Assembly (NCBI RefSeq): GCF_004339245.1
Contig: NZ_SMGG01000006.1
Coordinates: 1-64,000 of the forward strand
Source: Seleniivibrio woodruffii
GTDB lineage: Bacteria; Chrysiogenota; Deferribacteres; Deferribacterales; Geovibrionaceae
Length of the DNA: 64,000 nucleotides
Direction of reading: 5' to 3'
Below, in pieces: positions 36,516 to 53,120 of the stretch; the stretch's first letter is position 1; each line of letters starts with the position of its first letter. A model generated the notes under the pieces. The model saw only the letters and a program-made list of their open reading frames with translations, searched no databases and was not told where the DNA came from. The position numbers and the translations under genes are program-made.

Positions 36516-37559
36516 TCAGAACAGACCGTTCTTGTCCGTTCCGGAGCCCGAACCGTGGTAATGGCAGTCGGTGCAGTTGGATGAATAGGTGCTGGTATGC
36601 ACAACTTCCTTAAGACCGTTGCCGGCATCTGCACCTGCGGGGTTGGTGTGGCAAACTGCGCAGAGTTCGGAGAAGTTGTTCTCCGTAACCTTCACAGCAG
36701 CGTTTTTGGCGTCACTGTCTGCCAGTGCGGCCGTTTTGCCTGACTCGGTTATCAGATAGGGGTTATCTGACGAGTGAACCTGATGGCAGCTGAGACAGGG
36801 CAGTTCCATGTTGTTGGAATATGTGCCTCTGAAAACTCCGAAGCTCTGTCCGATACCTACTTTAGCACCGTGGATGTCTGCTGTTGACTTCATCTCGCTC
36901 TCTGTGCTTCCAAGCCCTTTGAAGGTTGCAAAAAGGTTCGTGACCTCTGTTTCAAACTTCAGTGCGGGCGGCATCACTCCGAAAGCCCCGTTACCGTCAT
37001 GGCAGTTGAGACAGACTGAGTTGATGTCAGTATACGCCGAGCTTCCTGCGGTGAAATCCACCGTAGGGTCTATAGTACCGTTCATATCCGACCATGCGTG
37101 GCAGACAACGCAGTCTGAGTTGCCTATTTCGCCGTCGCCGTTAAAGTCATGGACGTTGGCTCCGTGGAACATATCAGCGGAATCTTTCCCTACCACAGCC
37201 TCGTCCTTATGGCATGTGAGACACTGATATGTGTCGGCTGTTATGCCCTGAATGCCGTTTGTTCCGTGGCAGTAGAGGCATGCACCGATGTCCGTCTCGC
37301 TGACAGTGTCGAAACTGTCGGCAAGTTTAGTGTTATATGCGTGGATATCCTTAAGTTTCTTGATGTTATGGCAGAGGTAGCACTTGTCGTTGCCCCATGC
37401 AGAGCCGCCGTTGTGGTTCTTGGGCACTGTGAGCTGGGGAGCGTTACCCTTCATATCCCTGATGGGCGAATCTCCGTCGCCGGAGCTACCGCAGGCGGTG
37501 AGCAAAGCCAGAGATGCCAGAATGAATACTGCTATGATGTATCTGGAATATGCTTTCAT
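36516..37559 (-). CDS. Octahaem c-type cytochrome lipoprotein
   Basis: About 347 residues from the ATG at 37559, two bases after the upstream gene's stop and preceded by GGAAGGG. The signal is MKAYSRYIIAVFILASLALLTAC, with lipobox LTAC. Eight CXXCH motifs in order: CYLCH, CLYCH, CLTCH, CVVCH, CLNCH, CLSCH, CAVCH, CTDCH. DFNGDGEIGNSDC may be an EF-hand-like calcium site. As the last gene of the operon, beside a beta-barrel, it is a candidate outer-membrane subunit of a porin-cytochrome conduit. Whether it faces the periplasm or the cell surface cannot be told. Confidence 0.88.
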   Translation of the reverse strand: MKAYSRYIIAVFILASLALLTACGSSGDGDSPIRDMKGNAPQLTVPKNHNGGSAWGNDKCYLCHNIKKLKDIHAYNTKLADSFDTVSETDIGACLYCHGTNGIQGITADTYQCLTCHKDEAVVGKDSADMFHGANVHDFNGDGEIGNSDCVVCHAWSDMNGTIDPTVDFTAGSSAYTDINSVCLNCHDGNGAFGVMPPALKFETEVTNLFATFKGLGSTESEMKSTADIHGAKVGIGQSFGVFRGTYSNNMELPCLSCHQVHSSDNPYLITESGKTAALADSDAKNAAVKVTENNFSELCAVCHTNPAGADAGNGLKEVVHTSTYSSNCTDCHYHGSGSGTDKNGLF

Positions 37560-37561
37560 TT

Positions 37562-38131
37562 TCAACCCTTCCTGTGACATGTGATACAGAAGTCCACCCT
37601 GTGGCATTTGTCGCATGAGCCGGGGTCAATGGTGGCCTCCAGTGAATGCTTCAGCTTGAAAGAGCGGGAGTGTCTGTAGTTTTCAAGTGAGTTCTGCTTG
37701 CTGTGGCAGCTCTCGCAGTACCACTGTTTATGGCATGTTTCGCATGTTTTGCTGTCCAGTTTGGCAGGAACAGAGTGCAGAGTGTTCCAGTTGTTAACGT
37801 GGTCTGCGGGTTTCAGAACCTTCATGTTCTCATGGCATGTGGAACAGTTCTGAGGAGCGGAAGCAACCTTTGTAGGCACGTCACGGTGACATGAGTGACA
37901 CTTGCCGTCGATCTTCAGATCCGCCGCAATTTTGAGCTGTCCGCCGCTTTTTATCATCGTTTCGATGGAGGGCAGTTTATGACAGAAGAAACAGTCCCTT
38001 TTCTGTTGAAAAAGGATGTCCACATGAGCCTCGTGATTGAATTTTGTCACGGGGGACTGATAGTAGAACTGCGAGCATCCGTAGATGACGGGAACGATCA
38101 GCAATATGAGCCATGATAACTTTCTAATCAT
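37562..38131 (-). CDS. Heptahaem c-type cytochrome lipoprotein
   Basis: A 189-residue protein with a lipoprotein signal (LILLIVPVIYGC). Seven motifs: CFFCH, CHSCH, CSTCH, CETCH, CESCH, CDKCH, CITCH, packed at one haem per ~25 residues. This is the density of class III and c7-like electron wires. TKFNHEAHVDILFQQKRDCFFCH resembles cytochrome c7 N-termini. It lies between the beta-barrel gene and the octahaem lipoprotein. It probably carries electrons inside or beside the barrel on the periplasmic side. Confidence 0.88.
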   Translation of the reverse strand: MIRKLSWLILLIVPVIYGCSQFYYQSPVTKFNHEAHVDILFQQKRDCFFCHKLPSIETMIKSGGQLKIAADLKIDGKCHSCHRDVPTKVASAPQNCSTCHENMKVLKPADHVNNWNTLHSVPAKLDSKTCETCHKQWYCESCHSKQNSLENYRHSRSFKLKHSLEATIDPGSCDKCHRVDFCITCHRKG

Positions 38132-38152
38132 TATGTCCTCTTCTCTTATGCC

Positions 38153-39397
38153 TTAGAAGCTGTATGCCGCTTTCACGCCATATCTGTTTTCGGGCAGATA
38201 TCTTGTTTTCTGGTTCTTCTCTGCATAAACGCTGAGCTTAAGGTCTTTCCATATTTCATACTCCGCATCTGCATACACGGAATAAATGTTGTCCTCAGTT
38301 GCGTAGTTCTCCAGCCTCAGGTATTCGCTTTCGAATCCGAATTTAAAATCCCTTGTGAGGTTCCAGTCCAGCGCAAGGCTTGCGCCCTTTGCGTTGGAGG
38401 TTACGCTGTCGTAGTAGTAGCCTTCGACATTCGCTGTCACGCCTTTTGTCTTGAACCAGTCAAAATCAGCTCCCAGCTTATATATCTGGCCGTCGACAAC
38501 GTCGCCGCTTGACTGCTCTATTTTTGTGTTAACAACGCTGACATAGGGGGATACGTTCTCGGTGACCGCATACTGTACCGTAAGAGCCAGCTTCTCCTCT
38601 TTTCCTGTTGAAAAGTTGCTGATGATAAGGATGTCCTGATAGTTTGAACCGTCGTTGACATTGTATCTTGTGGCTTCTCCGGTTACTCTCAGTGCGCCCT
38701 TATTAAGGAACACTCTGACAGAACCTCTGTAGAAGTTGCTCTCTTCCATGTCATATTCTCCGTTGGCGTCAACACCTATGCCGTCTTTGCCGCCCAGTGA
38801 GAATACTCTTCCGAGTCCAAGTCCTGCAAACTCCTGATAGGTCATTTCGCTGTCGTACTCTTTAGAGTAGGAAACGTAACCTGTTGTGTCTTTGACACCG
38901 TTAAGGAATATGCGTCCGCCGTAAAGCTTGTCGCCTGTTTTGCGGAATTTTTCGTTGATGTGTCTGCCGTCAGCATCGAAATACTGGGGCTTACCGCCAA
39001 AAGCGGTGACACCGAATTTATAGTCTGTGCGGACAGTGGCTATAGCACCGTCCAGAGTGAGAAATCTGTTGCCGATGTACGAAAAGCGTCCGGCCTTGAC
39101 CTCTACCGCATTCTGAAAGCTGGTGTAGTCCAGATATGCTGAATAGATGTCCGACTGGCTGTCGCTCTCCTCTTCCGAATCTTTGGCAAACCTGCCGTAG
39201 AAACTGAAGCCGAAGTAGGGATCGTAAAGTTTTGCGTTGTCTATGCTCAGATAGTTTTCCCACAGCCTTTCGGTATCCTCGCCTTTGTCTTTGGATATCT
39301 CGTAGGATGTGGAGATGAACCCGTCCACATTGAACCCATACGCGGCCGCCGCCGAGCAGAGCATTACAGCAATTAAAATAAATCTGCTAATTTTCAC
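38153..39397 (-). CDS. Outer-membrane beta-barrel, putative porin of the electron conduit
   Basis: A 414-residue protein with a signal peptide ending AAAYG. Alternating amphipathic strands with aromatic belts (TSYEISKDKG..., FGFSFYGRF, YSAYLDYTSF, YGGRIFLNGV, SLALDWNLTRDFKFGFESEYLRL) run throughout, and the chain ends in AAYSF, the usual C-terminal Phe of outer-membrane barrels. I did not recognise the family, but position among lipoprotein cytochromes makes it the likely MtrB- or PCC-type sheath. It is shorter than MtrB (~700 residues) and closer to Geobacter-type porins of such conduits. Confidence 0.78.
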   Translation of the reverse strand: MKISRFILIAVMLCSAAAAYGFNVDGFISTSYEISKDKGEDTERLWENYLSIDNAKLYDPYFGFSFYGRFAKDSEEESDSQSDIYSAYLDYTSFQNAVEVKAGRFSYIGNRFLTLDGAIATVRTDYKFGVTAFGGKPQYFDADGRHINEKFRKTGDKLYGGRIFLNGVKDTTGYVSYSKEYDSEMTYQEFAGLGLGRVFSLGGKDGIGVDANGEYDMEESNFYRGSVRVFLNKGALRVTGEATRYNVNDGSNYQDILIISNFSTGKEEKLALTVQYAVTENVSPYVSVVNTKIEQSSGDVVDGQIYKLGADFDWFKTKGVTANVEGYYYDSVTSNAKGASLALDWNLTRDFKFGFESEYLRLENYATEDNIYSVYADAEYEIWKDLKLSVYAEKNQKTRYLPENRYGVKAAYSF

Positions 39398-39415: not shown

Positions 39416-41569
39416 TCAGTTTGCCGCCAGATCGGCGAGCGAAAGATTTACAAGTTTAACGACGTATCCGGGGTTGTGGAAACCGCCGCTTCTGTCGTTC
39501 AGTATGAAGTTGTAGTTATACGCCGCACGGTTCAGAGCGTTTGTCTGCGCTGTGGTAGTTCCCGTGTAGGAAGCTTTGATGGCCGCATCGGCTGCTTCTC
39601 CGGCTTTTGCGTTGATTGCCGCTTTAAGTTCGGCGATCTTAGCTTTTGCCGCTGCAACAGTACCAGCCGTAACATCGTAAGTGCCGTTGCTGTATGCAGG
39701 TGCGTTTGTAGTGTGGCAGCCTGTGGTACATCCGGCTATCCTTGCAGCTGTATCGTCTGTCATATCAAGGCTGTGTGTTGTGCCGCCTTGGGTCTTCATA
39801 TGGCATGTGCTGCATCCGGTGGCGGAGTGTGACGATGCCGTAGTGCCCAGATTCTGTCCGTATTCATATCCGCCCACACCGCTGATAAGCTCTGCCTGGG
39901 AGTTGTGGGGGATAGCACCCACTGTGGGAAGCTCTCCGTCGGCATTGTGGCAGTAGTAGCAAAGTTTGCTGTCACCTGCGGCAACAACAGTGCTCTTGGT
40001 GGGAAGAGTGTAGCTTCCGCTTATTCTCAGCTGAGAGTTCTGGCCTGATTCACCGTGGGGGTCGTGGCAGACCGAACAGCCGATGCCCGATATCCTGTCT
40101 GTGTTGGCAGGTGTTATATTCTTGCTGAATATTCTTCCCATCATGCCTTCGCCTGTGTGGCATTTGAAGCATGCCGCATTTTTGGCAACGTTTCCGCCTG
40201 AAAGCTTATGCGCATTGTCGTGTCCGTCTGAATATCCGAAAACGTGTCCGCTCACTGTGCCGTAGTCATGGCATGAGAGACAGACGTTTGATGTTATAGC
40301 TGTATTCTTATAGTGCTTTTCAAAGAAATTTGCACTGCTGCCGTCGTTGGGTCCGTGGCAGGCTTCGCAGGAAACGCTTTTAAGGTGATCGCCGCCTGTG
40401 GAGGCCATTGTGCTCCAGTTGGTTATCTTGTCGTCATAACCTTTCGCATCGCTGAACTCATCAGATCCGTTGCCGTTTCTGTCTGCAAACAGGAAGCCTG
40501 TTGCATGGCACTGGAAGCATCTGGAATCAGTTGATGCAGCCACAGCCGCAAATGAGTTGCCGTGTGCGCTTGCCGCCCAGGGAGTCGTGATTGCTCTGAG
40601 AACATTGCGTCCGTATTTATCAGTAATTCCTGAACCGGCAAATGTGCCGTCATGACAAACAACGCAGGATGCCGAGTTGGTCGCCGTGTTATATGAATAG
40701 TTAAGTGCGTAGAGTGTCACGCTCTCGGTTTTGGTGCTGTTTACGCCCACCAGAGAGAGTGAAACTGTGTATTTGCCTGCGACATCAGGAACGAATGTTG
40801 CATTTGTACCGTTGAGTGTAATAGCCGCAAGAGAGCCTGCGGGCTTTGATGTAAGCGTCCAGTTGAAAGATGTTACAGTATCGCCGAAAGTTACTGTGTC
40901 TATGAACAGCCTTACCTTCTCTCCGGGCTGAACACGATCGATCCCCCTTACGGAATCGGGAAGTGATTTTGCAGAAGGATCCACAAGGAATGAGCTTGCG
41001 GCGGCGGCAGCTCTGTAGCTGACAGCCTCAAACTTGATTATCCCTGTGAGAGATGATTCCGACTGTTCTTTTTTAAGACCCACGAAGAAACTTGCAGGTA
41101 CGCTCCCCACAGCGGTAACATCACTGCCCGAACCATGGCTGGATGTAAGTTTTGTCACCGAACTGCCTGAAAGAATGCATACGGCTGTGTCTGCTGCCGA
41201 TCCGCCCTCGTTGGCGAGAATAGTGCTGCTGTAGGGCAGTGTAACCGTCAGTGCGTAAACCGCATCGGCCTTGTCAGCCACACTCACCGTATAGACGGGA
41301 GAGAGGGACACATAGCCGTCAACAGAGTACTCTGCGTCAGATTTTTCTATATAAACAGTTTTGCCTGCCAGTCCTGCCGCTGTTCCGCTGAGAGCGAAAC
41401 CGGCCATCTCTCCGCTTCCGGTATAGGCAACTTTGCCGTCGGAACCGACAGTAGTGGTAACGATTATTCTGGTATCGTCATCAACGGAAGATTTTGTGCT
41501 TCCGCCGCCCAGACATGCTGTCAGAGCAAAAAGCGATACGGCAACAAGCAAAAATTTAATCAATCTCAT
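39416..41569 (-). CDS. Nonahaem c-type cytochrome lipoprotein with N-terminal Ig/PKD-like region
   Basis: A 717-residue protein with a lipoprotein signal (FALTAC). Residues ~25-295 are haem-free and beta-rich, ending in a PKD-like segment (VAGKYTVSLSLVGVNSTKTESVTLYAL). The haem region follows: CVVCH, CFQCH, CEACH, CLSCH, CFKCH, CSVCH, CYYCH, CSTCH and a ninth site CTTGCH (CX3CH). The last ~100 residues are Ala-rich helix ending in NDRSGGFHNPGYV, a phrase also found near the end of nitrite-reductase-like multihaem proteins. It is a likely outer-membrane terminal reductase or conduit subunit. Confidence 0.88.
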   Translation of the reverse strand: MRLIKFLLVAVSLFALTACLGGGSTKSSVDDDTRIIVTTTVGSDGKVAYTGSGEMAGFALSGTAAGLAGKTVYIEKSDAEYSVDGYVSLSPVYTVSVADKADAVYALTVTLPYSSTILANEGGSAADTAVCILSGSSVTKLTSSHGSGSDVTAVGSVPASFFVGLKKEQSESSLTGIIKFEAVSYRAAAAASSFLVDPSAKSLPDSVRGIDRVQPGEKVRLFIDTVTFGDTVTSFNWTLTSKPAGSLAAITLNGTNATFVPDVAGKYTVSLSLVGVNSTKTESVTLYALNYSYNTATNSASCVVCHDGTFAGSGITDKYGRNVLRAITTPWAASAHGNSFAAVAASTDSRCFQCHATGFLFADRNGNGSDEFSDAKGYDDKITNWSTMASTGGDHLKSVSCEACHGPNDGSSANFFEKHYKNTAITSNVCLSCHDYGTVSGHVFGYSDGHDNAHKLSGGNVAKNAACFKCHTGEGMMGRIFSKNITPANTDRISGIGCSVCHDPHGESGQNSQLRISGSYTLPTKSTVVAAGDSKLCYYCHNADGELPTVGAIPHNSQAELISGVGGYEYGQNLGTTASSHSATGCSTCHMKTQGGTTHSLDMTDDTAARIAGCTTGCHTTNAPAYSNGTYDVTAGTVAAAKAKIAELKAAINAKAGEAADAAIKASYTGTTTAQTNALNRAAYNYNFILNDRSGGFHNPGYVVKLVNLSLADLAAN

Positions 41570-41585
41570 ATAATCCTCTCACTGC

Positions 41586-42563
41586 CTACTCTGCGGACAT
41601 TCCTTCCAGAGCATCAAGCAGGTCCTTTGCTTCTTCAGGTTCATGACACTTCGCACACAGAGCCTCACGTCCGCCCTCAACAGACAGCAGTTTGTCGTTG
41701 TCCGAATAGTGGGGGCTGTGGCAGTCTGCGCACTCGATATCCTTGTTCAGTTTCTCGACCCTCACTCCCTTCACAGGGTGGGCTTTCATATAGCCCTTGG
41801 TGTGGAAGTTGTCCTCAGGGTTTCCGGAATCGTGACACTCGTTGCAGAGGTCGTCGATGGGTTTTCTGAGGTGCGTTCTGTTGGTCGACTTATGGGGTGA
41901 ATGACATATGGTGCAGTATCCCTCGATAACGGGTGAGTGAACCATAGGCATTGAGTCTATTTTCTCTTTCATCTGAGTGTGACACTTCAGACAGGTCTCC
42001 GCAAAAGGCTCGTGGGGAATGAATCCCTGCGCCTGGTCGTGGCACTCGAAACATTTAGCCTCTTTAACAGGTTTGTGAACCCATGCGCCGAGGAACTTGT
42101 CGCTGTGACAGTTAACACAGTCGCTCAGGTTGTCAAACTTATGGCAGTTAAGGCATATATCCTTATTTGTACTCTTGTGGAAACCGTTAAGTCCCTCTGT
42201 CCAGTCCGCAACCTTTGCCGCAGTGTCGATCCTGTTTATCACAAACGACTTTTTCTCGTCCCCCTGTGATATGTTGATCTTGTTCTCTCCGTCCTCAAGG
42301 CGCAGAATGGTCATAAGCATGTAATAGTCGTGTCCGGCGGTGTCCTTTGCTCTGATGAGCTTCTTCTCGGTGACTGCGCCGTTTATCTCAATTTTTACGG
42401 GCGTGTTGTTAGCAAGTCTGCCTATAACGTGTATATTGCTGACAGCTTTCATATTCTGAGACATGGGGAAGATGATCTGCATCTCGGCCCTGGCCTCAGT
42501 TGCAAAAACAAGACTACTCAGAGTCAATATTGTAATTATCAGGCAGTTTAATCGCGTCCGCAT
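41586..42563 (-). CDS. Octahaem periplasmic cytochrome c
   Basis: About 325 residues from the ATG at 42563 (GGAG 12 bases upstream), overlapping the preceding gene by 50 bases. The signal peptide ends ATEARA. A ~110-residue haem-free beta domain (MQIIFPMSQNMKAVSNIHVIGRL) precedes eight motifs: CLNCH, CVNCH, CFECH, CLKCH, CTICH, CNECH, CADCH, CAKCH. CSPH/CHSPHKSTNRTHLRKP segments resemble the doubled-CXXCH repeat family. It is probably a soluble periplasmic carrier between the inner-membrane module and the conduit. Confidence 0.87.
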   Translation of the reverse strand: MRTRLNCLIITILTLSSLVFATEARAEMQIIFPMSQNMKAVSNIHVIGRLANNTPVKIEINGAVTEKKLIRAKDTAGHDYYMLMTILRLEDGENKINISQGDEKKSFVINRIDTAAKVADWTEGLNGFHKSTNKDICLNCHKFDNLSDCVNCHSDKFLGAWVHKPVKEAKCFECHDQAQGFIPHEPFAETCLKCHTQMKEKIDSMPMVHSPVIEGYCTICHSPHKSTNRTHLRKPIDDLCNECHDSGNPEDNFHTKGYMKAHPVKGVRVEKLNKDIECADCHSPHYSDNDKLLSVEGGREALCAKCHEPEEAKDLLDALEGMSAE

Positions 42564-43383
42564 TCTTTTTGTCTCCATCCGCTTCATACAGCATTTTCAA
42601 ATAATAATTTAATCTGTTCTCAGACTTATATTTTCCTTTCAGTGCGCTCAGGATCTCGATGGCTTTTTTGTTGTCTCCGCCGAGATAGTATGCCAGTCCT
42701 GTGTAGAACCTGCACTCTGTCTCTTTGCAGGCCGAAAGAACCTCAAGAGCTTTGTCGGGTGATTTCAGTCTGAGATACGTCTGCCCCAGAAGGAGCTTAC
42801 CTTTATCGTCAAGTTTGTCCGCCGGAATTCCCTCCAGCTCTTTCAGAGCCGCATTCGTCTCTCCCTTTTTGGCAAGAAGGAGGACAAAATTCATTCTGGG
42901 GACTATTTTCTTATACAGTTCGGCACTTTCAGCAGCCTGCAGACGTTCTGCAAGCTGCTTACTGTCGGCTTTCCCTGATATGTAATCCAGATAAATTTCG
43001 ATTTTCGTATTGAAGCTGCTCTCGCTCTCTATTGCTCCAACAAGCTTGTTCTGCTTGTAAAACTCCATATATGGCAAATGTTTGTCTGTTTTGCCCTTGT
43101 AGATGGCGTTTTCGTTGTGCCCTTTAAAGCTCTCCGCAACCTCTTCAGTCGTCTTTTCAGTGCTTTCCGCAGCAATGCATGTCACCGCAGGGTGAGCTCC
43201 GCACTCTTTCAGAAAGTCAGCAAGCAGGCTGACATTGAAACGGTTTTTTCCGTCAAAATACAATACTGCTCTGTTGCCGGTCACGGGCTTTGCGGTCGGG
43301 AAAACAGGTTTCAGCTCATCCGCAGCCTGTGCAGAAACCGCAAACAGTACGCCCGTCAGTATACCTGCTATTTTAGTTCTCAC
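42514..43383 (-). CDS. Secreted TPR-like protein of the cytochrome operon
   Basis: A 289-residue protein with a signal peptide (ILTGVLFAVSAQA). The N-terminal ~120 residues have a thioredoxin-like or alpha/beta pattern without the CXXC motif. The C-terminal half consists of TPR-like helices (RMNFVLLLAKKGETNAALKELEGI, LLLGQTYLRLKSPDKALEVL, GLAYYLGGDNKKAIEILSAL). No haem site. It overlaps both neighbours (four and 50 bases), so strong co-expression is expected. A role in assembly of the 28-haem protein is plausible but inferred. Confidence 0.75.
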   Translation of the reverse strand: MRTKIAGILTGVLFAVSAQAADELKPVFPTAKPVTGNRAVLYFDGKNRFNVSLLADFLKECGAHPAVTCIAAESTEKTTEEVAESFKGHNENAIYKGKTDKHLPYMEFYKQNKLVGAIESESSFNTKIEIYLDYISGKADSKQLAERLQAAESAELYKKIVPRMNFVLLLAKKGETNAALKELEGIPADKLDDKGKLLLGQTYLRLKSPDKALEVLSACKETECRFYTGLAYYLGGDNKKAIEILSALKGKYKSENRLNYYLKMLYEADGDKKNADAIKLPDNYNIDSE

Positions 43384-46300
43384 TTTGCGCCCTCAATTTT
43401 TTCAAGGTTCCTTTGTATTTCAAACAGGTTCTTAAGAACCTCAGCCTCAAGCATCTTTCTGTTCAGCTGGCTTCTGCCGTCACGGAACGTCTTATCGTGG
43501 TATTTATCGAACAGGTCTTTTGCCTGTGTCTCACCGTGACATACCGCACAGAACTTGTCTTTCACTCCCGATTTAAGGAAGCTGTTCGTGGGATCGCCCT
43601 CAACGTTGTACGCTGCGGTCATTGAACCGCCTGCCTTCCATACGTGGGGGTTGTGACAGCTCTGGCATGTGATGGAGCCTTCAGCGGATACCAGTCCCTT
43701 ATCGTTGAAGAGGTTCTCTTTGAACTTCTCCCTGTAGGGGAATATCTTGAAGATTCTGTCGTGTGCCGTCTCAACGGGTATCTTTTTATAGCCTACGCCG
43801 TCTGTTTTGTGGCAGTCGCTGCACATTTCAAAGGCGAAAGGCTCTTTTCCGTTGGGTTTGTATGCCCACATCAGCCTGTTTTCCTTGTGGAAGTTGTGGG
43901 GTGTGTGGCATGCATAGCAAACGTTTGCCGCCGCCTTCTTCTTGTCGTTCTCGTTCAGGTAATCCAGCTTGGCAAGGTTGTGTTTGGTCATGTCCACCAG
44001 CTTCTGGTCTTCGTGACATGCGAAACATATGTTCTTCTCGCCCATGTCTCTCAGCATTCCCTTTTCGGGGCCGTGGGGTTCATGGCAAGTCGCACAGACT
44101 ATGTTTCCGTCCTGCAGATAAATATCCATGTTCTTCTTAGGCTTCACATTCATCTTGTGGCTGGATGTGATAGCCGTTTTGGAAGCGATGCCGGAATCTG
44201 AATGACAGCTTGCGCATATCTTCTCAAAGTCTTTGCCCATGGATTTATCGAACAGGTAATATCCGCCGTTGCCGTGAACCTCGTGGCATGCGCCGCAAGT
44301 GTCGTTGGCAGCCTTAAGTTTATTAACCTTCTCTGTGTTCTTCTCAAACTTGTTTACGTTATGAGGGGACTTGTCGAAGGACTGTTTGTCCTCGTGACAG
44401 CCCGCACAGAAACCGCCTTTGCTCATGAGCTTCTTATCGAGGAAGCTGTTCTGAACCGTACCCTCTGCGCCTTTTTTCGGGCCGTTGGAGTGGACAGTGT
44501 GACAGGTTGAGCAATAGATATAGTAATTGCCGTCCTTGTCTTTTGTCAGGTTCTTCTCATACTTCTGATATTTATCAATTTTGCCTGTTTTGTGTCCGCC
44601 GCTCACAGTCTTCTTGTCCGCATGGCCTTTGGGGTTGTGGCATGCGATGCAGTTGTCGTCTTTGGTCTTGTATGCATACTCCACGGTCATCATGTTGACG
44701 GGTGTTTTTGCATTGTGGACGCTGTGGCATGAGGCGCAGACAGCCTCTTTATCGGTTTTGCGCATGTCGTGGTCTGTGCCTGCGATCTCTTTCTGAGTCT
44801 GGTGGCATGCTGAGCAGAATGAATCCTGATCTGCAAATCCGCCCCTCATGAAATCCTTAACAGTGCCTTTTTTGGACTGTTTGTGGGGATCGTGGCAGCT
44901 TACGCATGTGAAAGTTCCGTCTTTAGTGAGTTTGAAGTCGCCTGTCATCTGCATTTTGGTCTTCATGTTGACAGGGTGAGAGTGCTCGCCGATGAGCTTT
45001 TTCTCGCCGCTTCCGCCCACTTTGTGGCAGTCAAGACAGCCATCGTTGACAGCAACTGTCAGCAGTCTTTCGCTGTCGCTGTTGTGTACCTTGTGACAGG
45101 ACATACAGCTCTTTTCGTTCTTCTTGTCGCCGTGAGATGTCTTGGCGATCATCTCTTTCTCTTTATGGCATGTGATGCAGAGTGTTCCGTTCTCAACGCC
45201 GATTCTCAGCGCATTGGGGTTCTTGCCGTGAATATCGTGGCATGTGGAGCAGTTCACATCGGTTTTGCTCTGGTCGGAACCCATCGTGGTGAAGAATCTG
45301 ACTATTTTGGCGAACAGAGGAAGTTTTTCATTCTTCTGCATATCCTTTTTCAGACCTTTGCCCACTGGGTGGTTGAACTTCTTGGTATCTATTATCTTCT
45401 TCGCACCGACAGCACCTTCGGTGTGGCAGCTTACGCATCCTTTGGTAAGGAGGTCGCCTTCGCCTGCGAATCCCGCAGACCAGCCGTGGGGTGCGTGGCA
45501 GCTTCCGCATGTTCCGGCCTGCTGAGCAGATTTGCCGTCTTTAGTGCGGAATCCTTTGGCAGTAAGCATGTCGTGCTTGCCGCCTGCGATCTCTTTCTTG
45601 TTGTTGTGGCAGGTGTAGCAGAGTTTATTATCGGAGTTTTCCGTAACAAGCAGTCCGTCAGCCTTTGCCTTGTGGGTGGAGTGACACGTTGAGCAGATTA
45701 CTTTGCTGTCCTTGGTGTATATTCCGCCGCTCTTTATCATCTCAAGCATATCGCTCTGTTTGGTGTGCTTTATGTTCACGGGGTGAGTGAGCATACCTTT
45801 GATGTACTCGCCGGATTTGGCATCCACCACGCCTTCGTGGCATACGCCGCATATCTTGGAGTCCGTCAGAGATTCGATAAGCAGTTTGGTCTCTTTAGGT
45901 GAGTGAGGGGTATGGCAGCTTTCGCAGACGACCTGTCCTTTGCTGCCCAGCTTTCCATAGCGGGATCTGACCTCTTTGGCCATGTTCTCATATCCGCTCT
46001 GGGGAGCTTTCAGGGGGTGGCTTATGTTGCCGTCCTTTCCTATCTCCTTGTGGCAGGCTACGCAAAGTTCAGAGTTGTTGTTCTCCATACGCAGGAAAAC
46101 GCTCTTGTCTATCTTGTCGTTCTTGGGGTCGCCTGTTGAGTGTGCGGAGTGGCAGGTGCGGCAGGCTATCTTGCCCTTTTCAAGGGGCAGGTTGCCTGGA
46201 ATTTTCATATGTTCGGGTATCTTGTCGGTGAGTTTGTGCATCTCGCCTGACCAGACCCTGATCCTGCTGTCGGCAACGGAGCCGTTGTGGCAGCTGAAAC

Positions 46301-46505
46301 ACATCTTGTCGCTGGCCACCACTTTTTCCTTCTGGTAGTCAACGACCTCTGTCCCTTTCAGATCATAAAGGAACTGAGGCATCCATTCATAGTGGCAGAA
46401 TGCGCACTCTTTGGATGAATCGGGGTTGCTTTTTGTCACGTCAGCTGCGAAGGCCGCAGGTGCGGACAGAACTATAAGTGTGAGCAGGAGAAGAAGCTTT
46501 CTCAT
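43380..46505 (-). CDS. 28-haem c-type cytochrome
   Basis: A 1041-residue exported protein (signal ending APAAFA) with 28 CXXCH motifs counted one by one, from CAFCH near residue 34 to CAVCH near the end. They are about one per 37 residues and many continue as CXXCH-x-x-H (for example CSTCHSTH, CMSCHKVH, CVSCHDPH, CGACHEVH), the doubled-CXXCH type. Internal modules repeat (CESCHTPH, CSTCHDIH, CATCHEPH), suggesting growth by duplication. No membrane anchor or lipobox is seen, so it is periplasmic or secreted. It could act as a long electron wire or a capacitor. Four-base overlaps with both neighbours indicate coupled translation. Confidence 0.92.
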   Translation of the reverse strand: MRKLLLLLTLIVLSAPAAFAADVTKSNPDSSKECAFCHYEWMPQFLYDLKGTEVVDYQKEKVVASDKMCFSCHNGSVADSRIRVWSGEMHKLTDKIPEHMKIPGNLPLEKGKIACRTCHSAHSTGDPKNDKIDKSVFLRMENNNSELCVACHKEIGKDGNISHPLKAPQSGYENMAKEVRSRYGKLGSKGQVVCESCHTPHSPKETKLLIESLTDSKICGVCHEGVVDAKSGEYIKGMLTHPVNIKHTKQSDMLEMIKSGGIYTKDSKVICSTCHSTHKAKADGLLVTENSDNKLCYTCHNNKKEIAGGKHDMLTAKGFRTKDGKSAQQAGTCGSCHAPHGWSAGFAGEGDLLTKGCVSCHTEGAVGAKKIIDTKKFNHPVGKGLKKDMQKNEKLPLFAKIVRFFTTMGSDQSKTDVNCSTCHDIHGKNPNALRIGVENGTLCITCHKEKEMIAKTSHGDKKNEKSCMSCHKVHNSDSERLLTVAVNDGCLDCHKVGGSGEKKLIGEHSHPVNMKTKMQMTGDFKLTKDGTFTCVSCHDPHKQSKKGTVKDFMRGGFADQDSFCSACHQTQKEIAGTDHDMRKTDKEAVCASCHSVHNAKTPVNMMTVEYAYKTKDDNCIACHNPKGHADKKTVSGGHKTGKIDKYQKYEKNLTKDKDGNYYIYCSTCHTVHSNGPKKGAEGTVQNSFLDKKLMSKGGFCAGCHEDKQSFDKSPHNVNKFEKNTEKVNKLKAANDTCGACHEVHGNGGYYLFDKSMGKDFEKICASCHSDSGIASKTAITSSHKMNVKPKKNMDIYLQDGNIVCATCHEPHGPEKGMLRDMGEKNICFACHEDQKLVDMTKHNLAKLDYLNENDKKKAAANVCYACHTPHNFHKENRLMWAYKPNGKEPFAFEMCSDCHKTDGVGYKKIPVETAHDRIFKIFPYREKFKENLFNDKGLVSAEGSITCQSCHNPHVWKAGGSMTAAYNVEGDPTNSFLKSGVKDKFCAVCHGETQAKDLFDKYHDKTFRDGRSQLNRKMLEAEVLKNLFEIQRNLEKIEGAK

Positions 46506-47389
46506 TTTCCACCCCTCAGCTCATAAACAGTGACAGACTTTGCAAATGCATCCACCACCGCCAGATATCTTCCGTTGATCCTCATGTGGGTTATTGAGTC
46601 GAACTTCAGCTTTCTGCCGTTCTTGTCTTTCAGAACGCCTGCAAACTTTCCGTCCTCGTCAAAATACTGGATGACGCCTGTGAAGCCGTCACCGACAAAA
46701 AGGGTAGTGCCGCCGAGAACCGCAACACCAGTGGGTCTGTAGAACTCTCCGGCACCGATTCCCCATTTGCCTATATTCTCATAAAACTTGAAATCTTTAG
46801 TGATCTTCTGGACACGGGTGCCCAGAGCTTCGGAAACATAGAGAACGCCTCTTTTGTCCGTAGCCAGCGCAAATGGATACCAGAACTCAAGTTTTCCGTT
46901 TCCGAAACCGCCCACGGTCTGTTCGACCGCTTTGGTTCCCAGATGTGTCTTTAAAACACGGTGGTTGTCGTTGTCCACCGTATAGACATATCCTCCGGAC
47001 ACCAGAGCATCGGTGGGGTCATATTTCCCTTTTATGCCTGCGGGCAGTCCGAACGTACTGAACTTATCCAGACCTGCTGTCAGCATGTCCAGTGAGTTTT
47101 CTGTGCTGTTGCAGTAAAGGAAGTAGTTACCGTTCTTAACAAGACAGTTCCCGCCTTTAAGGAAAGACTTCTGAACTGATTTGACGGCTCTTCCGTTCCT
47201 GTAAACCGTATATGTTCCGCCGAATGCGTCATATACGCCTGTGCTGGCATCGCTTTCCACAACCACATCTCCGGGTGCAGCATTGTCTTTCAGCTGCACT
47301 TTATAGAGAAGTGATGCTGTCACCTGGGCAGCATCACTTATTGCGGCAATACTAAAAAGCAGAATTACGGCAAAGATCTTAATTTTCAC
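46502..47389 (-). CDS. Secreted NHL-repeat beta-propeller
   Basis: A 295-residue protein with a signal peptide ending AISDA. Repeated blades match the NHL pattern: DPTDALVSGGYVYTVDNDNHRVLK, YPFALATDKRGVLYVSEALGTRVQKI, RPTGVAVLGGTTLFVGDGFTGVIQYF. Probably a six-bladed propeller. No haem motif. NHL proteins are found beside large multihaem cytochromes in metal reducers, where they may scaffold the complex or be peptidyl partners. It overlaps the 28-haem gene by four bases and the trihaem gene by 11. Confidence 0.82.
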   Translation of the reverse strand: MKIKIFAVILLFSIAAISDAAQVTASLLYKVQLKDNAAPGDVVVESDASTGVYDAFGGTYTVYRNGRAVKSVQKSFLKGGNCLVKNGNYFLYCNSTENSLDMLTAGLDKFSTFGLPAGIKGKYDPTDALVSGGYVYTVDNDNHRVLKTHLGTKAVEQTVGGFGNGKLEFWYPFALATDKRGVLYVSEALGTRVQKITKDFKFYENIGKWGIGAGEFYRPTGVAVLGGTTLFVGDGFTGVIQYFDEDGKFAGVLKDKNGRKLKFDSITHMRINGRYLAVVDAFAKSVTVYELRGGK

Positions 47390-48239
47390 TCTCTTGTCCC
47401 TCTGCAGGTTTCAGGAAGTTGGGGATGAAGAACTCTTTGTATTTGTCCACCATACCGACAACTTCGTTGCCTACGAGCTGGTTAGCTCTTCTTTCAGGAT
47501 AGCCGATCTTCGCAAAAGGCAGGTATGCCTTATAGGAGTCGGAAGTGTGGCAATCCTCACAGTTAACAGTGTCCTTAAGCTCGGTCATGGGTCTGTGGAT
47601 AACTTTCAGAGATGCGCTCTTTGCTGAGGGCACCATGTTGTTAACCTGAGCCTTGAACTCGCCTACGTATTTTTTCATCTGCTCATTGTCATAGAATCTC
47701 TCGCCGGAGTTCTTAAGAGGCATGAGCTTATAGGGCGTGTCTTTCAGATAGCTTGAAAGGTCTATCTTGTCCTTCTCTTTTCCTGTGGCTTTTTCATACC
47801 ATACAAACTTGGTGTCGGCTTTGCTTTCCGCCTTTATGTGGCAAGTTTCGCATGCCATGAAGTATGCGTGCATATTCAGGAAAGCCCTGACCTCTTTCTT
47901 TTTGTCGTGGGGAACGTCGCCATGGCAGGAGACGCAGAGGTTCTGCTTGTCCTCAATGGCCGTTCTCTTGGTTTCGTGGAAATCATAAAGCTTGTGGCTG
48001 CTGTTTATGTCCTTAGACCCGCTGCCATGTCCGTCGGTGTCGTTGACACCCTTTATCATCTCCTGATACAGCTTGTCCTCTTTGCTCATTCCGACTGTGG
48101 TCTCCTCGTGGGAGGCTTTGTGCCAGATGTGCATTACGAGTATCTGAATTATATATCCGCAGTATACAAGAATAAGTATACCCAGCAGACAGTAGATTAT
48201 CCTTTTAGGTCCAACCTTAACGTGGTGGTGCTCAGACAT
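47379..48239 (-). CDS. Membrane-anchored trihaem cytochrome c
   Basis: A 286-residue protein with an uncleaved N-terminal membrane helix (IIYCLLGILILVYCGYIIQILVM) after a short His-rich cytoplasmic start (MSEHHHVKVGPKR). Three haem sites: CVSCH, CETCH, CEDCH. It starts at the stop of the cytochrome b gene (one-base overlap), so they almost certainly form one inner-membrane complex, with this subunit taking electrons from cytochrome b. Confidence 0.87.
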   Translation of the reverse strand: MSEHHHVKVGPKRIIYCLLGILILVYCGYIIQILVMHIWHKASHEETTVGMSKEDKLYQEMIKGVNDTDGHGSGSKDINSSHKLYDFHETKRTAIEDKQNLCVSCHGDVPHDKKKEVRAFLNMHAYFMACETCHIKAESKADTKFVWYEKATGKEKDKIDLSSYLKDTPYKLMPLKNSGERFYDNEQMKKYVGEFKAQVNNMVPSAKSASLKVIHRPMTELKDTVNCEDCHTSDSYKAYLPFAKIGYPERRANQLVGNEVVGMVDKYKEFFIPNFLKPAEGQESEN

Positions 48240-49141
48240 TACTTATCCCCCTTTTCGCTCTTTTCATTTTCCTGAAGGAAAGAAATCTGACCTCTGATAA
48301 TTTCGAGCTTCTCAGCATCTTCCAGTTTCTGCGCTTCTTTCTGTGCATCGATGTCGAGCAGATATGAGGAGTCTTTCTCAACTATTTTGTTGATACGGGC
48401 CCACTCAACATAATACTCGTGTTTCATCAGGTCTTCGGGAAGATAGCCTGTTATGAACAGCGGCGACACAGGGAACTTGTCGTAGTTTATATGTGCGTTG
48501 TACATGTGCCATATAAAGATAACGCTCACCGCCAGCATCGCTTCGTCAGAGTGTGCGATGTAGCTGATGTTGATCGCCCAGCCGGGAAGGAATGAAGCAG
48601 CCCAAACAGGGAACCACAGGAAAAGTCCGGTGATGCCGAGAACGGGAATACCCCAAAACACCGCCCAGTAGTCAAACTTCTCTCTCCAGTGGAATCTTTC
48701 GTGTTTGGGTCTGTCATCGGAGATGAACAGCGCAAACTTGACGAAATCCGCTATGTCCTTTCCGTCTTTCGCACGGGGACACATGGGAGAATAGTAAACA
48801 AAGAGACCCAGCTCTTTCCATGAGAAAGTTCCGGTTCTTCTTGCGGGGCCGGCATAGTATTGCCAGATGTTTTTAAACAGGTAATACCAGTGATAGAAGA
48901 ACAGACCGCACATTGTAACGCCTGCTATTCTGTGCAGAATTCTTGTAACAGGGAGACCGCCGAAGAAATCTATAACGGGTTTAGCCCAGTCATAGTAGTG
49001 GAATTTCAGCGGGAAGCCCGTAAGGGTCAGCATAAGGAAAGTTGTCATGAGGATATAGTGCTGAGCCTTCTGGTTTCCTGTTATTTTCAGGTAATGTCTC
49101 TTACCGTCTTTAATTTTTATAAGGGGCAGTTTTCTCATCAT
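48239..49141 (-). CDS. Di-haem cytochrome b, putative quinol dehydrogenase subunit
   Basis: A 300-residue membrane protein like the gamma subunit of formate dehydrogenase or Ni-Fe hydrogenase cytochrome b. Four to five membrane segments: HYILMTTFLMLTLTGFPLKFHYY, ILHRIAGVTMCGLFFYHWYYLFKNI, FWGIPVLGITGLFLWFPVW, SDEAMLAVSVIFIWHMYNAHIN. His residues in helices 1, 2 and 4 are candidate haem b ligands. The C-terminal ~50 residues are a charged helix. In this operon it would oxidise menaquinol and pass electrons to the adjacent multihaem subunits, as proposed for Cbc complexes of Geobacter. Confidence 0.88.
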   Translation of the reverse strand: MMRKLPLIKIKDGKRHYLKITGNQKAQHYILMTTFLMLTLTGFPLKFHYYDWAKPVIDFFGGLPVTRILHRIAGVTMCGLFFYHWYYLFKNIWQYYAGPARRTGTFSWKELGLFVYYSPMCPRAKDGKDIADFVKFALFISDDRPKHERFHWREKFDYWAVFWGIPVLGITGLFLWFPVWAASFLPGWAINISYIAHSDEAMLAVSVIFIWHMYNAHINYDKFPVSPLFITGYLPEDLMKHEYYVEWARINKIVEKDSSYLLDIDAQKEAQKLEDAEKLEIIRGQISFLQENEKSEKGDK

Positions 49142-49153: not shown

Positions 49154-50203
49154 TTAGTCCTTTTTTTTGCGTCTGAAGCTCAGGTTCGGGAACATCTCTC
49201 TGATAAGTTCCAGAATCATGAGACCAAGCAGCGGGTAGAATGCACCGATTGTAAGAATGGTGAAGCCAAGCGCCACATAAAACTCTATGGGGTAGATATC
49301 TTTGTCGATAACAGAGTGCATCCTGATCATGCCGAACTCCTTAGTGGGGTTGACGTGACAGTTTGAATCCTGGCAAGCAAGATATCTGTTTGATTCATAC
49401 GTTGCGCTGTCAGGGCTTCTCCAACTGCGTATCTTGTGAGCGGATTCGCCTTTCTTAACGTGACAGTCGATACAGCTGGGAGCGTTGGGCATTCCAAACT
49501 CAACAGCCTTTCCGTGGAATGTGTCGAGATAGGTTGCGGCAGCATTTTTCATTTTATGCTTCGTTGCCATCTCTTCTTTGGAGTGACATTTACTGCAGGT
49601 CTTTACAACGTCCTCAGAGGGAGCAAGGTTTTTGATCCTGTGGGTGACGTGTTCAAAGAAATAACGGTAGTCGACGTTGTTTGCGTGACATACGGCACAT
49701 TTCTGAAGGATCCTCTCCTTGTGTCTTGCCTCGTCAACCGACTCAACATCGCCTATCTGAAAGCGGTATTGGGGGTTTTTGTGGCAGTTTGTACAGGTGG
49801 GGAAATCATCCACTATCTTGGCTCTGACATAGGGGTTGTCAGGGTTGTGGATACTCTGTTTGAGGTCATCAAAGATCTTTTTGTGTGAAAAAGGTTTTTC
49901 CGAGCCTGCATTTGTGACGTGACACTCGGTTGAGCAGTCAACAGGCTTCATCTCTTTGTGAGGTATCTCTTTGATATCGACGTGACAGCCGGTACATTTC
50001 ACTTTTGTGTGAACTGTATGGTTGTAGTTCTCCGAATCAACATAGAATACTCTCAGGTATCCCTCGTTGTTCACGCGGGTCAGGCCGGGGTACTTGTGGC
50101 ACATCATACAGTTTTCACCATCGGTGACAACTGAAGCCCTGGCCGTTCCGCAGGTCATAAAGAGACTGAAGACCATGACGGCAATAAAACAGTATATTCT
50201 CAT
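49154..50203 (-). CDS. Octahaem membrane cytochrome c with non-canonical haem sites
   Basis: About 349 residues from the ATG at 50203 (GGAG six bases upstream). An N-terminal signal (IYCFIAVMVFSLFMTCGTARA) and a C-terminal membrane helix (FYVALGFTILTIGAFYPLLGLMILELI) leave the haem domain in the periplasm. Sites in order: CMMCH, CTGCH, CSTECH (CX3CH), CTNCH, CAVCH, CSKCH, CIDCH, CQDSNCH (CX4CH). The pattern resembles NapC/NrfH-related and Cbc-type multihaem quinol dehydrogenase subunits. First gene of the 11-gene operon, directly before the cytochrome b. Confidence 0.87.
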   Translation of the reverse strand: MRIYCFIAVMVFSLFMTCGTARASVVTDGENCMMCHKYPGLTRVNNEGYLRVFYVDSENYNHTVHTKVKCTGCHVDIKEIPHKEMKPVDCSTECHVTNAGSEKPFSHKKIFDDLKQSIHNPDNPYVRAKIVDDFPTCTNCHKNPQYRFQIGDVESVDEARHKERILQKCAVCHANNVDYRYFFEHVTHRIKNLAPSEDVVKTCSKCHSKEEMATKHKMKNAAATYLDTFHGKAVEFGMPNAPSCIDCHVKKGESAHKIRSWRSPDSATYESNRYLACQDSNCHVNPTKEFGMIRMHSVIDKDIYPIEFYVALGFTILTIGAFYPLLGLMILELIREMFPNLSFRRKKKD

Positions 50204-50254
50204 CATCAGCTCCAAATAAATGATTGAGTTAGCCTATATTACGGCTATTTTCAT

Positions 50255-50283: not shown

Positions 50284-50536
50284 CATAAGATGCACCCGTG
50301 TTTACCCTAATTTGTAAATTTTATTAAGATGCAATTATTCGAATATTCATAAATAGATAGGCCATCTCATAACAAGAGATAAGTCGGTGTGATTTCAGAC
50401 TATTTGGCTGTTATTTTAAAGTGGCTGTTAAATAAGTGTTTATCATTTTTCAGCATCTGAAACGTTTTTATTTATAAATGATGCGGTTGCATTTTATACT
50501 TTCAGACAGCATATGATCAGACCAAAATTCACGGAA

Positions 50537-50568
50537 TAAAAAAAACCCCGCCGAAGCGGGGTTTTTTA
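50537..50568. terminator. Bidirectional intrinsic terminator of the decahaem cytochrome gene
   Basis: An AAAAACCCCG / CGGGGTTTTT hairpin ~45 bases after the decahaem gene stop, with A- and T-runs on both sides. It separates this gene from the 11-gene operon. Confidence 0.88.
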
Positions 50569-50609
50569 GAAGGCGGAGCGAACCCCGCCAAAATTGTTAC
50601 CTAGAATGA

Positions 50610-53120
50610 TTACTGAGCAAGCTGCAGTATTTCGTTCTTAGTAGATTTGTTAGTTTTGTAACCGAATGTTGTAGCGTGAGCTCTGATTGCAGCTGCATCG
50701 CTGATGTTACCTTTGTGACAGCTTGTACAAGCAGCCGCATTGGGTCCGATTACTGTGTCATCTGCATGAGATGCAAGGTTTGCGCCCTGCTCAACAGTTA
50801 CAGCAACAGCTTTAGTCTGGTCAGCAACATTGAATGTTCCTGCGGGGTGACAAGCTGTACAGCTGGTGATCGCACGGGGATAATGTACCTGAACGTCCTG
50901 CCACATGGAAGCTGTTCCGCCTACGCCGAAGTTAGCAGGCTGAGCAGATTCGCCGCGGAATGAGTAGATACCTCTTGTACGGTAAACCATATAAGCTGTG
51001 TCTGTGTCAGTTGCAGAGTGAATGTTGTGAAGCATTACTTTCAGGTCATAAGACTCTTCAGTTTTGCCGTCAGCAGTTACATTGTAACCCTGAGCTGCAA
51101 GAGTAGTTCTCGGTGACTTGTCAGTTGCGTTAGCATTGTGACATGTTACGCAAAGCTCAATGTTGTTGATTCTGTTGTGTCCGTGTCCGAGGAAGTCAGT
51201 GTGACAGTTCAGACAGAGGTTGATATCAACAGCGGAACGACGTGCAGTAGCTGCAGAGTTGTCTCTGTTGAAGTTTTTAGTAACAGAGTCAACGATTGCA
51301 AGGTAACCTGTGCCGCCGGACCAAACAACGGGTACACCCTGAATTGCAACGATACCTTTAGTGGCTGTTACAGTTGCGGGAATTGTGAATGTTGTTTCAA
51401 ATACATCAGTAGTTCCAACTTCTGAAGTGTTACCGGATCCTACTGCAACGTTCAGAGTAGGCTGACCACCCTGAGAAGTGATACCCTGGTTAGTAAGGTC
51501 ATCACCGGTGTAGAAACCGATCACCATAGATGTTGCATATGACTGGAAAGCTCTGGCAGCATCTGCTGATGAAGGAGAAGTACCTACGAATACAGCGTCG
51601 TTTGCAGCTGTTGTTCTTTTCAGAACATCGTAGTTTGTTGAAGTGTTAGTGTTGTACGCTCTCCAAGTAACTTTTCCTGTGTTGCCAGTGATTGTAACAG
51701 ACTGGATTTCGTAAGCGATGTTTTTGCCAAGAGAAACTTCCATGTTATGGAGGTTGCCAGCGTGGATGTCTTCAAGTGAAGTAGGAGCAATTGCGCCTGC
51801 AGCACCAGTGTGGCAAGTTACGCATACATTGTCGTTAGCGGCTACAGTGTATGAAGAGTGGATTGACTTAAGTGTGTCATTCATAGGGATAGTTTCCCAA
51901 GGAGTGCTACCATGGCAAGTTACGCAAAGTGACAGTCTGAATTTAGAGTTGTCGGTTGCGTTTGCAAGCTGGTCAGCAGTTGTGTGGCAAACTGAGCACT
52001 CAGACATGTTGCTGGGGAAACCGATATTGAATCCGTCTTCATCAGGATAACCTTTAAGAGCATTACCATCTGTATCTTTTCCGCTTTCATACATAGCAGA
52101 AGCGTGAACGCCATGCACACGACCAACAAGAGAAGATCTTGAGTTGGACACATATGCGGGCTGGTTAGTGCCATCATAAGATGCACCACCAATGTGGCAA
52201 GTTACGCAGTCATCTGCATCTGCTCTGAGAACGTTGTTGTGATGATAGTTGAACTCGTTATCACCGTGACATTTGATACAGCTGGGAGCAGAACCCTTGT
52301 CACTAACATAGTTTCTGGGGTTGTTAGAGCTGTTAACATCATAGTCAACGCCTGCAACAAGCAGTCTCTGAACGTTGAAACCATCTTTCAGGTTACCTCT
52401 GTAGATGTCAGAAGCAGCATTTGCTCCGTCAGCATCTGAAGAAGTTGCACCGATCATAAGTGTTTCAGCAAGATAAGGTGTCAGGTTAGCATCAGCAGCA
52501 ATAGTCACAGTGTAGTTGTTACCTGAATCCAGTACAGCAACGCGGTTGCTGAAGTTAGCTGCTGTAGCAGGTGCAATGTTTACCCATCTGTCATAGTTTG
52601 CAAGGGTATTATCATCCTGATAACGGTTGATAGTGAATGAAACAAAATCAGCCGCAGGGTTAAAAGCAGCACCAGTTGAAGTTATAGTGATATCAACAGT
52701 AAGAGAGTTATCTCCGTTAACTACCACATCAGTGATGTTTGCACTCCAAGCTGTTTTGAAGTTACGCACTTCACGAACCACCGGAGCGGAATCGTTAGCT
52801 CCCTGATGGCCTTTAACGAGATAATCACCGCCGTGAGCGGGGTCGTTAGTTTTGCCGTCAGCGTGGCAAGTTGCGCAAGATTCAACAGCAGTGATTTTGC
52901 CAGTTGAAGCAAGTTCAGCTTCAAGAGCTGCGATTGCATCTTCGTACTGAGCAATAGTGATAGCACCGCTTTCAAGCTGTGCCTTAAGCTCGGCAATGAT
53001 AGCCGCCGTGTCTGCATCAGCACCATTGGCGCCGTCAGAGCCGTCTGAGCCGCCGCAACCTACCAGCATGAACGAGCAGGTGAGGGCGAGCATCAAAAGA
53101 AATAAAATTCTTCTCGACAT
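50610..53120 (-). CDS. OmcA/MtrC-family decahaem c-type cytochrome (surface lipoprotein)
   Basis: An 836-residue lipoprotein (lipobox LVGC then GGSDGSDGANGADAD, a flexible linker). A short helical segment at ~35-75 precedes CATCH. The ten sites are CATCH, CIKCH, CVTCH, CSVCH, CVTCH, CVTCH, CLNCH, CVTCH, CTACH and CTSCH. They are arranged as two clusters separated by beta-rich segments (for example VTITGNTGKVTWRAYNTNTSTNYDVL), as in the four-domain OmcA/MtrC fold. The family forms the extracellular terminus of electron conduits reducing Fe(III), Mn(IV), flavins or electrodes. GGAGG precedes the ATG. It has its own promoter, a ~260-base leader with two RNA structures, and its own terminator. 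Confidence 0.92.
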   Translation of the reverse strand: MSRRILFLLMLALTCSFMLVGCGGSDGSDGANGADADTAAIIAELKAQLESGAITIAQYEDAIAALEAELASTGKITAVESCATCHADGKTNDPAHGGDYLVKGHQGANDSAPVVREVRNFKTAWSANITDVVVNGDNSLTVDITITSTGAAFNPAADFVSFTINRYQDDNTLANYDRWVNIAPATAANFSNRVAVLDSGNNYTVTIAADANLTPYLAETLMIGATSSDADGANAASDIYRGNLKDGFNVQRLLVAGVDYDVNSSNNPRNYVSDKGSAPSCIKCHGDNEFNYHHNNVLRADADDCVTCHIGGASYDGTNQPAYVSNSRSSLVGRVHGVHASAMYESGKDTDGNALKGYPDEDGFNIGFPSNMSECSVCHTTADQLANATDNSKFRLSLCVTCHGSTPWETIPMNDTLKSIHSSYTVAANDNVCVTCHTGAAGAIAPTSLEDIHAGNLHNMEVSLGKNIAYEIQSVTITGNTGKVTWRAYNTNTSTNYDVLKRTTAANDAVFVGTSPSSADAARAFQSYATSMVIGFYTGDDLTNQGITSQGGQPTLNVAVGSGNTSEVGTTDVFETTFTIPATVTATKGIVAIQGVPVVWSGGTGYLAIVDSVTKNFNRDNSAATARRSAVDINLCLNCHTDFLGHGHNRINNIELCVTCHNANATDKSPRTTLAAQGYNVTADGKTEESYDLKVMLHNIHSATDTDTAYMVYRTRGIYSFRGESAQPANFGVGGTASMWQDVQVHYPRAITSCTACHPAGTFNVADQTKAVAVTVEQGANLASHADDTVIGPNAAACTSCHKGNISDAAAIRAHATTFGYKTNKSTKNEILQLAQ

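Follow-up and report, generated by a model that had tools for sequence, protein, structure and literature searches.

How electrons cross the periplasm is debated, with diffusing small cytochromes set against a fixed wire, and a multihaem cytochrome locus in Seleniivibrio woodruffii raises the question of what route it provides from quinol to the cell exterior and where that route leads. The locus occupies positions 36516-53120 of the window (the whole 64,000-nt stretch of DNA that was analysed), with all genes on the minus strand, in a 2.9 Mb genome of 11 contigs (genus Seleniivibrio, family Geovibrionaceae, phylum Deferribacterota). We consider it probable that this locus provides a conduit for electrons across the envelope, leading from quinol to the outer membrane. 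This assignment is based on gene content, motif conservation, gene order, barrel prediction and the homology of a beta-barrel and its heptahaem partner to a Pcc-like pair; the direction of flow, the contacts, the surface exposure and the terminal acceptor are what we infer, and the acceptor is expected to differ among species. Metal reduction is not implied by the locus, and a metal acceptor is unproven. What stands out most is that outer modules are swapped while the inner core stays constant. The core ends in a 28-haem protein, always encoded between a quinol-oxidising module and an exchangeable exit, and the invariance of its 28 haem sites and 27 distal histidines across an order makes the fixed-wire idea directly testable.

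The conserved core and its 28-haem cytochrome

The original prediction counted 81 haem motifs in eight cytochrome genes, and direct counting returns the same figure (8, 7, 9, 8, 28, 3, 8 and 10 from 36516 upwards), made up of 78 CXXCH, two CX3CH and one CX4CH. Residue-shuffled versions of the eight proteins contained a mean of 0.43 CXXCH over all eight, with a maximum of four in 1000 runs, versus 78 observed. The chance expectation was 0.4 for CX3CH and 0.4 for CX4CH, and we regard the atypical motifs as real sites because they are conserved by column in orthologues, both of those in the core octahaem gene in 15 of 15 and that of the nonahaem gene in 10 of 10. Every haem site is conserved in the hepta-, nona-, octa- and trihaem proteins, one cell of the comparison excepted; in the core octahaem cytochrome, seven of the eight sites are kept in all 15 orthologues and the first in 14.

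Across the Deferribacterota, the order octahaem c, cytochrome b, trihaem c, NHL propeller, 28-haem c is kept in every complete locus found, in five families; the decahaem gene does not hold its position. The cytochrome b scores above the PF01292 cut-off, retains H70, H84, H197, H212 and H217 invariantly as expected of an FdnI-like quinol module, and matches Escherichia coli FdnI, a menaquinone-reactive subunit (E 1.6e-4). The octahaem c-type cytochrome is its likely partner. In Dester_0351/Theam_0871, as in the window's pair, an FdnI-like cytochrome b part goes with an octahaem part that has six typical and two atypical motifs, although the two parts are fused there and encoded separately here (PMC4245776). 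A fused protein of this kind, of about 700 residues, occurs in family f7 of the Deferribacterota, and the window's octahaem c is homologous end to end to a Syntrophorhabdaceae protein adjoining a cytochrome b. The CbcAB type of cytochrome b/multihaem c module is, by description, of the same general kind. A cross-phylum cytochrome b profile scan with two strict peptide patterns recovered eight Deferribacterota and seven other loci; several of the seven carry an octahaem/cytochrome b-like pair and none a 28-haem or NHL gene, a result that falls short of showing the core to be restricted to the Deferribacterota.

Relatives of the 28-haem protein occur in 18 of the 51 Deferribacterota genomes, and across 16 aligned orthologues (35-83% identity) all 28 CXXCH motifs and 27 distal histidines are invariant. 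Its motifs alternate strictly, CXXCHxxH being followed by CXXCH with a histidine 11 to 18 residues on, which yields 14 di-haem units. Of the longer spacings, every other one measures 11 residues (13 in the last) and those in between 15-18, suggesting seven tetrahaem units. Only the first haem, with the motif CxxCHYEWM, is without its own distal histidine, and an invariant Met42 is found there instead. This pattern speaks for bis-histidine, low-spin haems arranged in a chain. MtrA, with 10 haems, forms a rod of 104 angstrom (PMC4245776); by extrapolation, the 28-haem chain could be well over 200 angstrom long. An AlphaFold2 model of the protein (pLDDT 46, pTM 0.29) was discarded, and no shape is claimed from it. 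Against the MtrA/DmsE model TIGR03508 (cut-off 192.2), the best score in the window was 152.9 bits, spread over six stretches of the 28-haem protein and below the threshold. A periplasmic cytochrome of 21-27 haems, proposed to span the periplasm in PCC3 (PMC10734462), recalls the 28-haem protein by description; PCC3 differs in its extracellular cytochrome of 10-35 haems.

Conservation of this extent bears on whether the locus could be the decaying relic of a system for metal reduction, a proposal published for Deferribacter desulfuricans (cited in PMC6896113 and PMC13186404). A shortened 28-haem gene in one Seleniivibrio genome would fit such decay; the window's open reading frames (ORFs) are all intact, haem sites are kept across families, and the 28-haem protein cannot be regarded as decaying because none of its 28 motifs and 27 distal histidines varies among the 16 orthologues. 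We consider a remnant highly improbable, and the degenerate-locus idea was rejected for the window on the grounds of intact genes and conserved haem sites. In the shortened case (L035, G026:C9), the gene is reduced to its last 11 haems and the upstream core is missing, for which rearrangement, loss and misassembly are candidate causes. In a Denitrovibrio metagenome-assembled genome, the NHL gene preceding the 28-haem gene appears short (219 residues; L033, around 4914-5813), possibly through a frameshift.

Outer modules: a Pcc-type barrel and an alternative exit

In the window, the core is followed by a compact outer-membrane barrel and lipoprotein cytochromes. The AlphaFold2 model of the barrel (414 residues, pLDDT 80) has 22 strands, no plug and a C-terminal Phe, and superposes on TonB-dependent receptor barrels over about 350 residues (Z up to 19.6, root-mean-square deviation 4.2). 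The lumen of TonB-dependent receptors is normally filled by a plug, which is similar in size to the heptahaem protein. The heptahaem lipoprotein is the best candidate for a cytochrome inside the barrel; its gene adjoins the barrel gene in all complete loci, and a related pair is also found at three further loci (L099, L101 and L102). MtrB was absent among the barrel structure matches listed, and a relation to it is still possible; the MtrB barrel of MtrCAB differs in having 28 predicted strands (PMC4245776). When the PDB was searched by sequence, neither the profiles of the barrel, heptahaem and octahaem proteins nor the decahaem protein brought up a relevant entry.

The closest published likeness of this module is the Pcc clusters (OmbB-OmaB-OmcB; Desulfurispirillum indicum, Denitrovibrio), which similarly comprise an 18-22-strand barrel, a paired multihaem cytochrome and outer-membrane lipoprotein cytochromes (PMC4245776). 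The window's barrel and heptahaem protein have a homologous pair in D. indicum: the barrel matches one in strain S5, a candidate for the published Pcc porin, with an HH E-value of 6e-10 over 170 columns, and for the paired cytochrome the profile comparison scores 103, against 49 for an unrelated octahaem control. In that genome (G003), these weak relatives lie side by side with a 15-haem lipoprotein, as expected for Pcc. The outer-membrane lipoprotein cytochromes of Pcc have their equivalents in the octa-, nona- and decahaem proteins, which carry a lipobox and are predicted to be surface exposed; four lipoprotein cytochromes are encoded at the locus, none with Asp at +2. The nonahaem lipoprotein begins with a haem-free stretch of about 300 residues, followed by the nine haems. 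Unlike in Pcc clusters, the barrel's partner is itself a lipoprotein, and the operon adds a whole inner-membrane and 28-haem section. The Pcc cluster listed for Denitrovibrio acetiphilus (PMC4245776) may correspond to this locus or to a weaker one at 980 kb.

Relatives of the barrel pair also occur in other company. In Denitrovibrio acetiphilus (L099, G018:C1:973000-989000), a barrel, a pentahaem lipoprotein and a 6-haem lipoprotein lie beside a Tat-exported fumarate-reductase-like flavoprotein, and in a Seleniivibrio genome (L101, G026:C10:8000-20000) a barrel and a 6-haem protein adjoin a Tat-exported molybdoenzyme of the dimethyl sulfoxide (DMSO)/selenate type with a Cys near the signal, a candidate surface-exposed reductase. 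The recurrence of the barrel and heptahaem pair supports a general role across the outer membrane, with terminal partners that would differ.

These features allow a periplasmic reading of the locus to be weighed, namely respiration of soluble acceptors with the 28-haem protein as an electron store and the barrel as an ordinary substrate porin. Both the 28-haem and the periplasmic octahaem protein have a signal peptide and no further anchor, and local profile matches link them to NrfB and octahaem reductases, as such a role would predict. The operon, however, is without a catalytic subunit, no more than one haem of the 28-haem protein is free for catalysis, given the near-complete bis-histidine ligation, the barrel and heptahaem pair recurs in other genomes, and four of the cytochromes are lipoproteins. 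We therefore regard periplasmic respiration as unlikely.

The original prediction presented the combination of a 28-haem cytochrome and an NHL propeller in one operon as distinctive, a view overtaken by earlier papers on four Deferribacter species, which describe a 19-gene multihaem cluster that includes 28- and 10-haem proteins and assign it a putative role in Fe(III) reduction (DEFDS_0741-60, FHQ18_02900-02990, also D. abyssi and D. thermophilus; PMC6896113, PMC13186404). That cluster contains the five core genes in the same order, with relatives of the tetratricopeptide repeat (TPR) protein and the periplasmic octahaem cytochrome, and the present locus is a variant of it and not a new kind of system. 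The outer parts are unrelated: in Deferribacter, a barrel of about 790 residues, a peptidyl-prolyl isomerase (PPIase), NHL lipoproteins and 10- and 13-haem cytochromes; in the window, the 22-strand barrel with hepta-, octa- and nonahaem lipoproteins. The third gene of the Deferribacter cluster encodes a cytochrome b561-like protein (PMC13186404), as it does in one of our genomes (G011, L042); the gene has been called formate dehydrogenase in the same paper (G011 counterpart L042 5505-6398) and is most likely the FdnI-like core cytochrome b. We take G011 and G010 (family f3) to be Deferribacter because their genes are arranged as in the published cluster: the cytochrome b gene comes third, and genes for a two-component system lie within.

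The compact barrel is found in 13 genomes (E below 1e-50; families f1, f6 and f7) and the large barrel in six (f2-f5, Deferribacter's family and three others). No genome among these 13 and 6 carriers has both; the two barrels show no homology on direct comparison, and neither has a match in the other group. In the second group, the genes after the core encode a 13-haem protein, TPR and octahaem proteins, an NHL lipoprotein, a kinase-regulator pair, small tetrahaem proteins, the large barrel, the PPIase, another NHL protein and a cytochrome with ten CXXCH. Three loci (L060, L061 and L062) exemplify this Deferribacter-type module, with the barrel, PPIase, NHL lipoprotein and ten-CXXCH cytochrome, and their barrel has no Pfam or NCBIfam match. 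NHL, PPIase and barrel components also recall Uet (PMC10734462), a likeness by parts list. The distribution of the two barrels appears to match the split of the order into two main clades in PMC13186404, so that one ancient replacement may suffice.

In contrast to the core, the decahaem gene varies. It had been called OmcA/MtrC-type, and it is clearly related to that family, although its scores of 195.4 and 198.1 bits fall below the curated TIGR03507 cut-off of 209.3. As a fixed part of the locus it does not stand, since the gene at the same position in another Seleniivibrio is 30% identical, compared with 59-89% for the flanking operon genes, and other family members have at that position no decahaem gene or a different one. 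In that other Seleniivibrio (L028), the upstream DNA and N-terminal part are kept while the head differs, and a closer relative of the window's head (50%) sits elsewhere in its genome. The host genome has two decahaem paralogues (G000:C5:192466-194826 and G000:C7:174506-176656), which are 52-84% identical to the window's protein over the first 95 or so residues and 14-35% over the remainder. All three share a similar N-terminal tether (lipobox, Gly-Ser-Asp stretch, helical stalk) below diverged haem heads, and the head thus appears to be exchangeable and to lie outside the conserved conduit.

Taken as a whole, these comparisons lead us to a tentative proposal, which we hold at rather less than even confidence. 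A constant quinol-to-periplasm core, ending in a periplasm-bridging 28-haem polypeptide, may act as an adaptor to outer-membrane exits that are not homologous to each other. In Geovibrionaceae and related families, the exit would be a Pcc-type 22-strand barrel; in Deferribacteraceae and their relatives, it would be an unrelated barrel of about 790 residues accompanied by PPIase and NHL proteins. Decahaem heads at the surface would be exchanged on a shared N-terminal tether. Within an incomplete coverage of the literature, we came across no earlier account of the Seleniivibrio locus, of the invariant 28-haem chain or of two alternative exits.

The proposed electron path and its acceptor

Under the conduit reading, menaquinol would be oxidised at the inner membrane by the cytochrome b and its octahaem partner, and electrons would pass to the anchored trihaem protein and, with the NHL propeller as a possible docking part, to the 28-haem protein. 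The latter, with its 14 paired-CXXCH units and near-complete bis-histidine ligation, would serve as a periplasmic wire and, together with the periplasmic octahaem protein, would deliver electrons to the heptahaem lipoprotein inside or against the 22-strand barrel. From there, the octa- and nonahaem lipoproteins and, when expressed, the exchangeable decahaem surface protein could be reached. Of the quinone-to-surface path originally claimed, the cytochrome b module, the periplasmic multihaem carriers and the barrel with its lipoprotein cytochromes are all present, intact and conserved, whereas the decahaem surface part is not conserved. No homologues of MtrA, MtrB, MtrC, OmcS, CymA, ImcH, CbcL or OmbB have been reported in Deferribacter (PMC6896113), and the proposed path, if true, would explain why searches with known conduit genes missed the route there.

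Several points weigh against this path. The conduit is a prediction from sequence and models. The putative wire role of the 28-haem protein is read from its motif pattern only, its structural model having been of low confidence, and the match of the cytochrome b to FdnI (E 1.6e-4) is weak. Genomes of the same genus (G025, 99% complete) and family (G020, 92%) are without the locus, which is thus dispensable, and the carriers of the core are not all Fe(III) reducers (PMC6896113).

This last point leads to the possibility that the same conduit serves a non-metal acceptor, such as polysulphide or S0, extracellular selenium or arsenic species, humics or a partner cell. D. desulfuricans possesses the orthologous cluster without Fe(III) reduction (PMC6896113). 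Similarly, Denitrovibrio acetiphilus, whose chromosome (G018) carries the whole locus, was found to grow only with nitrate, iron reduction being unresolved (PMC3035293), Pcc clusters have been argued to occur in non-metal-reducing bacteria (PMC4245776), and relatives of the barrel pair stand beside exported molybdo- and flavo-reductases. However, several core carriers do reduce Fe(III), namely D. autotrophicus, D. abyssi and D. thermophilus (PMC13186404). We give a non-metal acceptor a chance only slightly below even.

Transcription units and neighbouring genes

The predicted 11-gene operon is borne out: from 50215 to 36516, neighbouring genes either overlap by 1-74 nt or are spaced 2-21 nt apart (Table 1), and a strong terminator-like hairpin follows at 36489-36462. 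The decahaem gene forms its own transcription unit, because a GC-rich hairpin with a T-run (about 50567-50537) separates it from the operon. The last operon gene probably starts at about 37559 and not at the ORF start of 37616. With the starts as called, there is a 74-nt overlap between the TPR ORF and that of the periplasmic octahaem protein, so that the true octahaem start is probably further downstream.

Table 1. Genes of the locus and the adjoining candidate regulators, with positions in the window.
Feature	Position	Strand	Remarks
Octahaem lipoprotein, LTAC lipobox	36516..37559	-	Operon end
Heptahaem lipoprotein, 189 aa	37562..38131	-	Conserved partner of the barrel
22-stranded outer-membrane beta-barrel, no plug domain	38153..39397	-	Related to Pcc porins
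Nonahaem lipoprotein, LTAC lipobox	39416..41569	-	8 CXXCH + CX3CH; 9/9 sites in 10/10 orthologues
Periplasmic octahaem cytochrome, paired CXXCH	41586..42587	-	8/8 sites in 15/15 orthologues
TPR-type exported protein	42514..43383	-	Putative assembly or scaffold role
28-haem periplasmic cytochrome	43380..46505	-	14 paired-CXXCH units
NHL beta-propeller	46502..47389	-	Signal peptide, no haem; kept between trihaem and 28-haem genes
Trihaem cytochrome	47379..48239	-	N-terminal membrane anchor
Cytochrome b, FdnI/b561 type	48239..49141	-	Quinol oxidation, predicted
Octahaem c-type cytochrome	49154..50215	-	6 CX2CH + CX3CH + CX4CH; C-terminal membrane helix
Decahaem lipoprotein, LVGC lipobox, OmcA/MtrC-like	50610..53120	-	Separate transcription unit; variable surface head
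Sigma-54-type response regulator	53697-55070	-	Candidate regulator
Histidine kinase with receiver domain	55067-56905	-	Candidate regulator

The kinase-regulator pair adjoins the locus in another Seleniivibrio as well. Despite the sigma-54-type regulator next door, a search for sigma-54 promoters upstream of both units gave no convincing site. The other multihaem genes of the host genome (L086-L089) include no second copy of the core or the barrel; among them, an 11-haem protein is encoded near a Tat molybdoenzyme operon on contig 3 (L086, G000:C3:496000-515500). Six further CXXCH motifs lie on the minus strand at 19000-21000 of the window.

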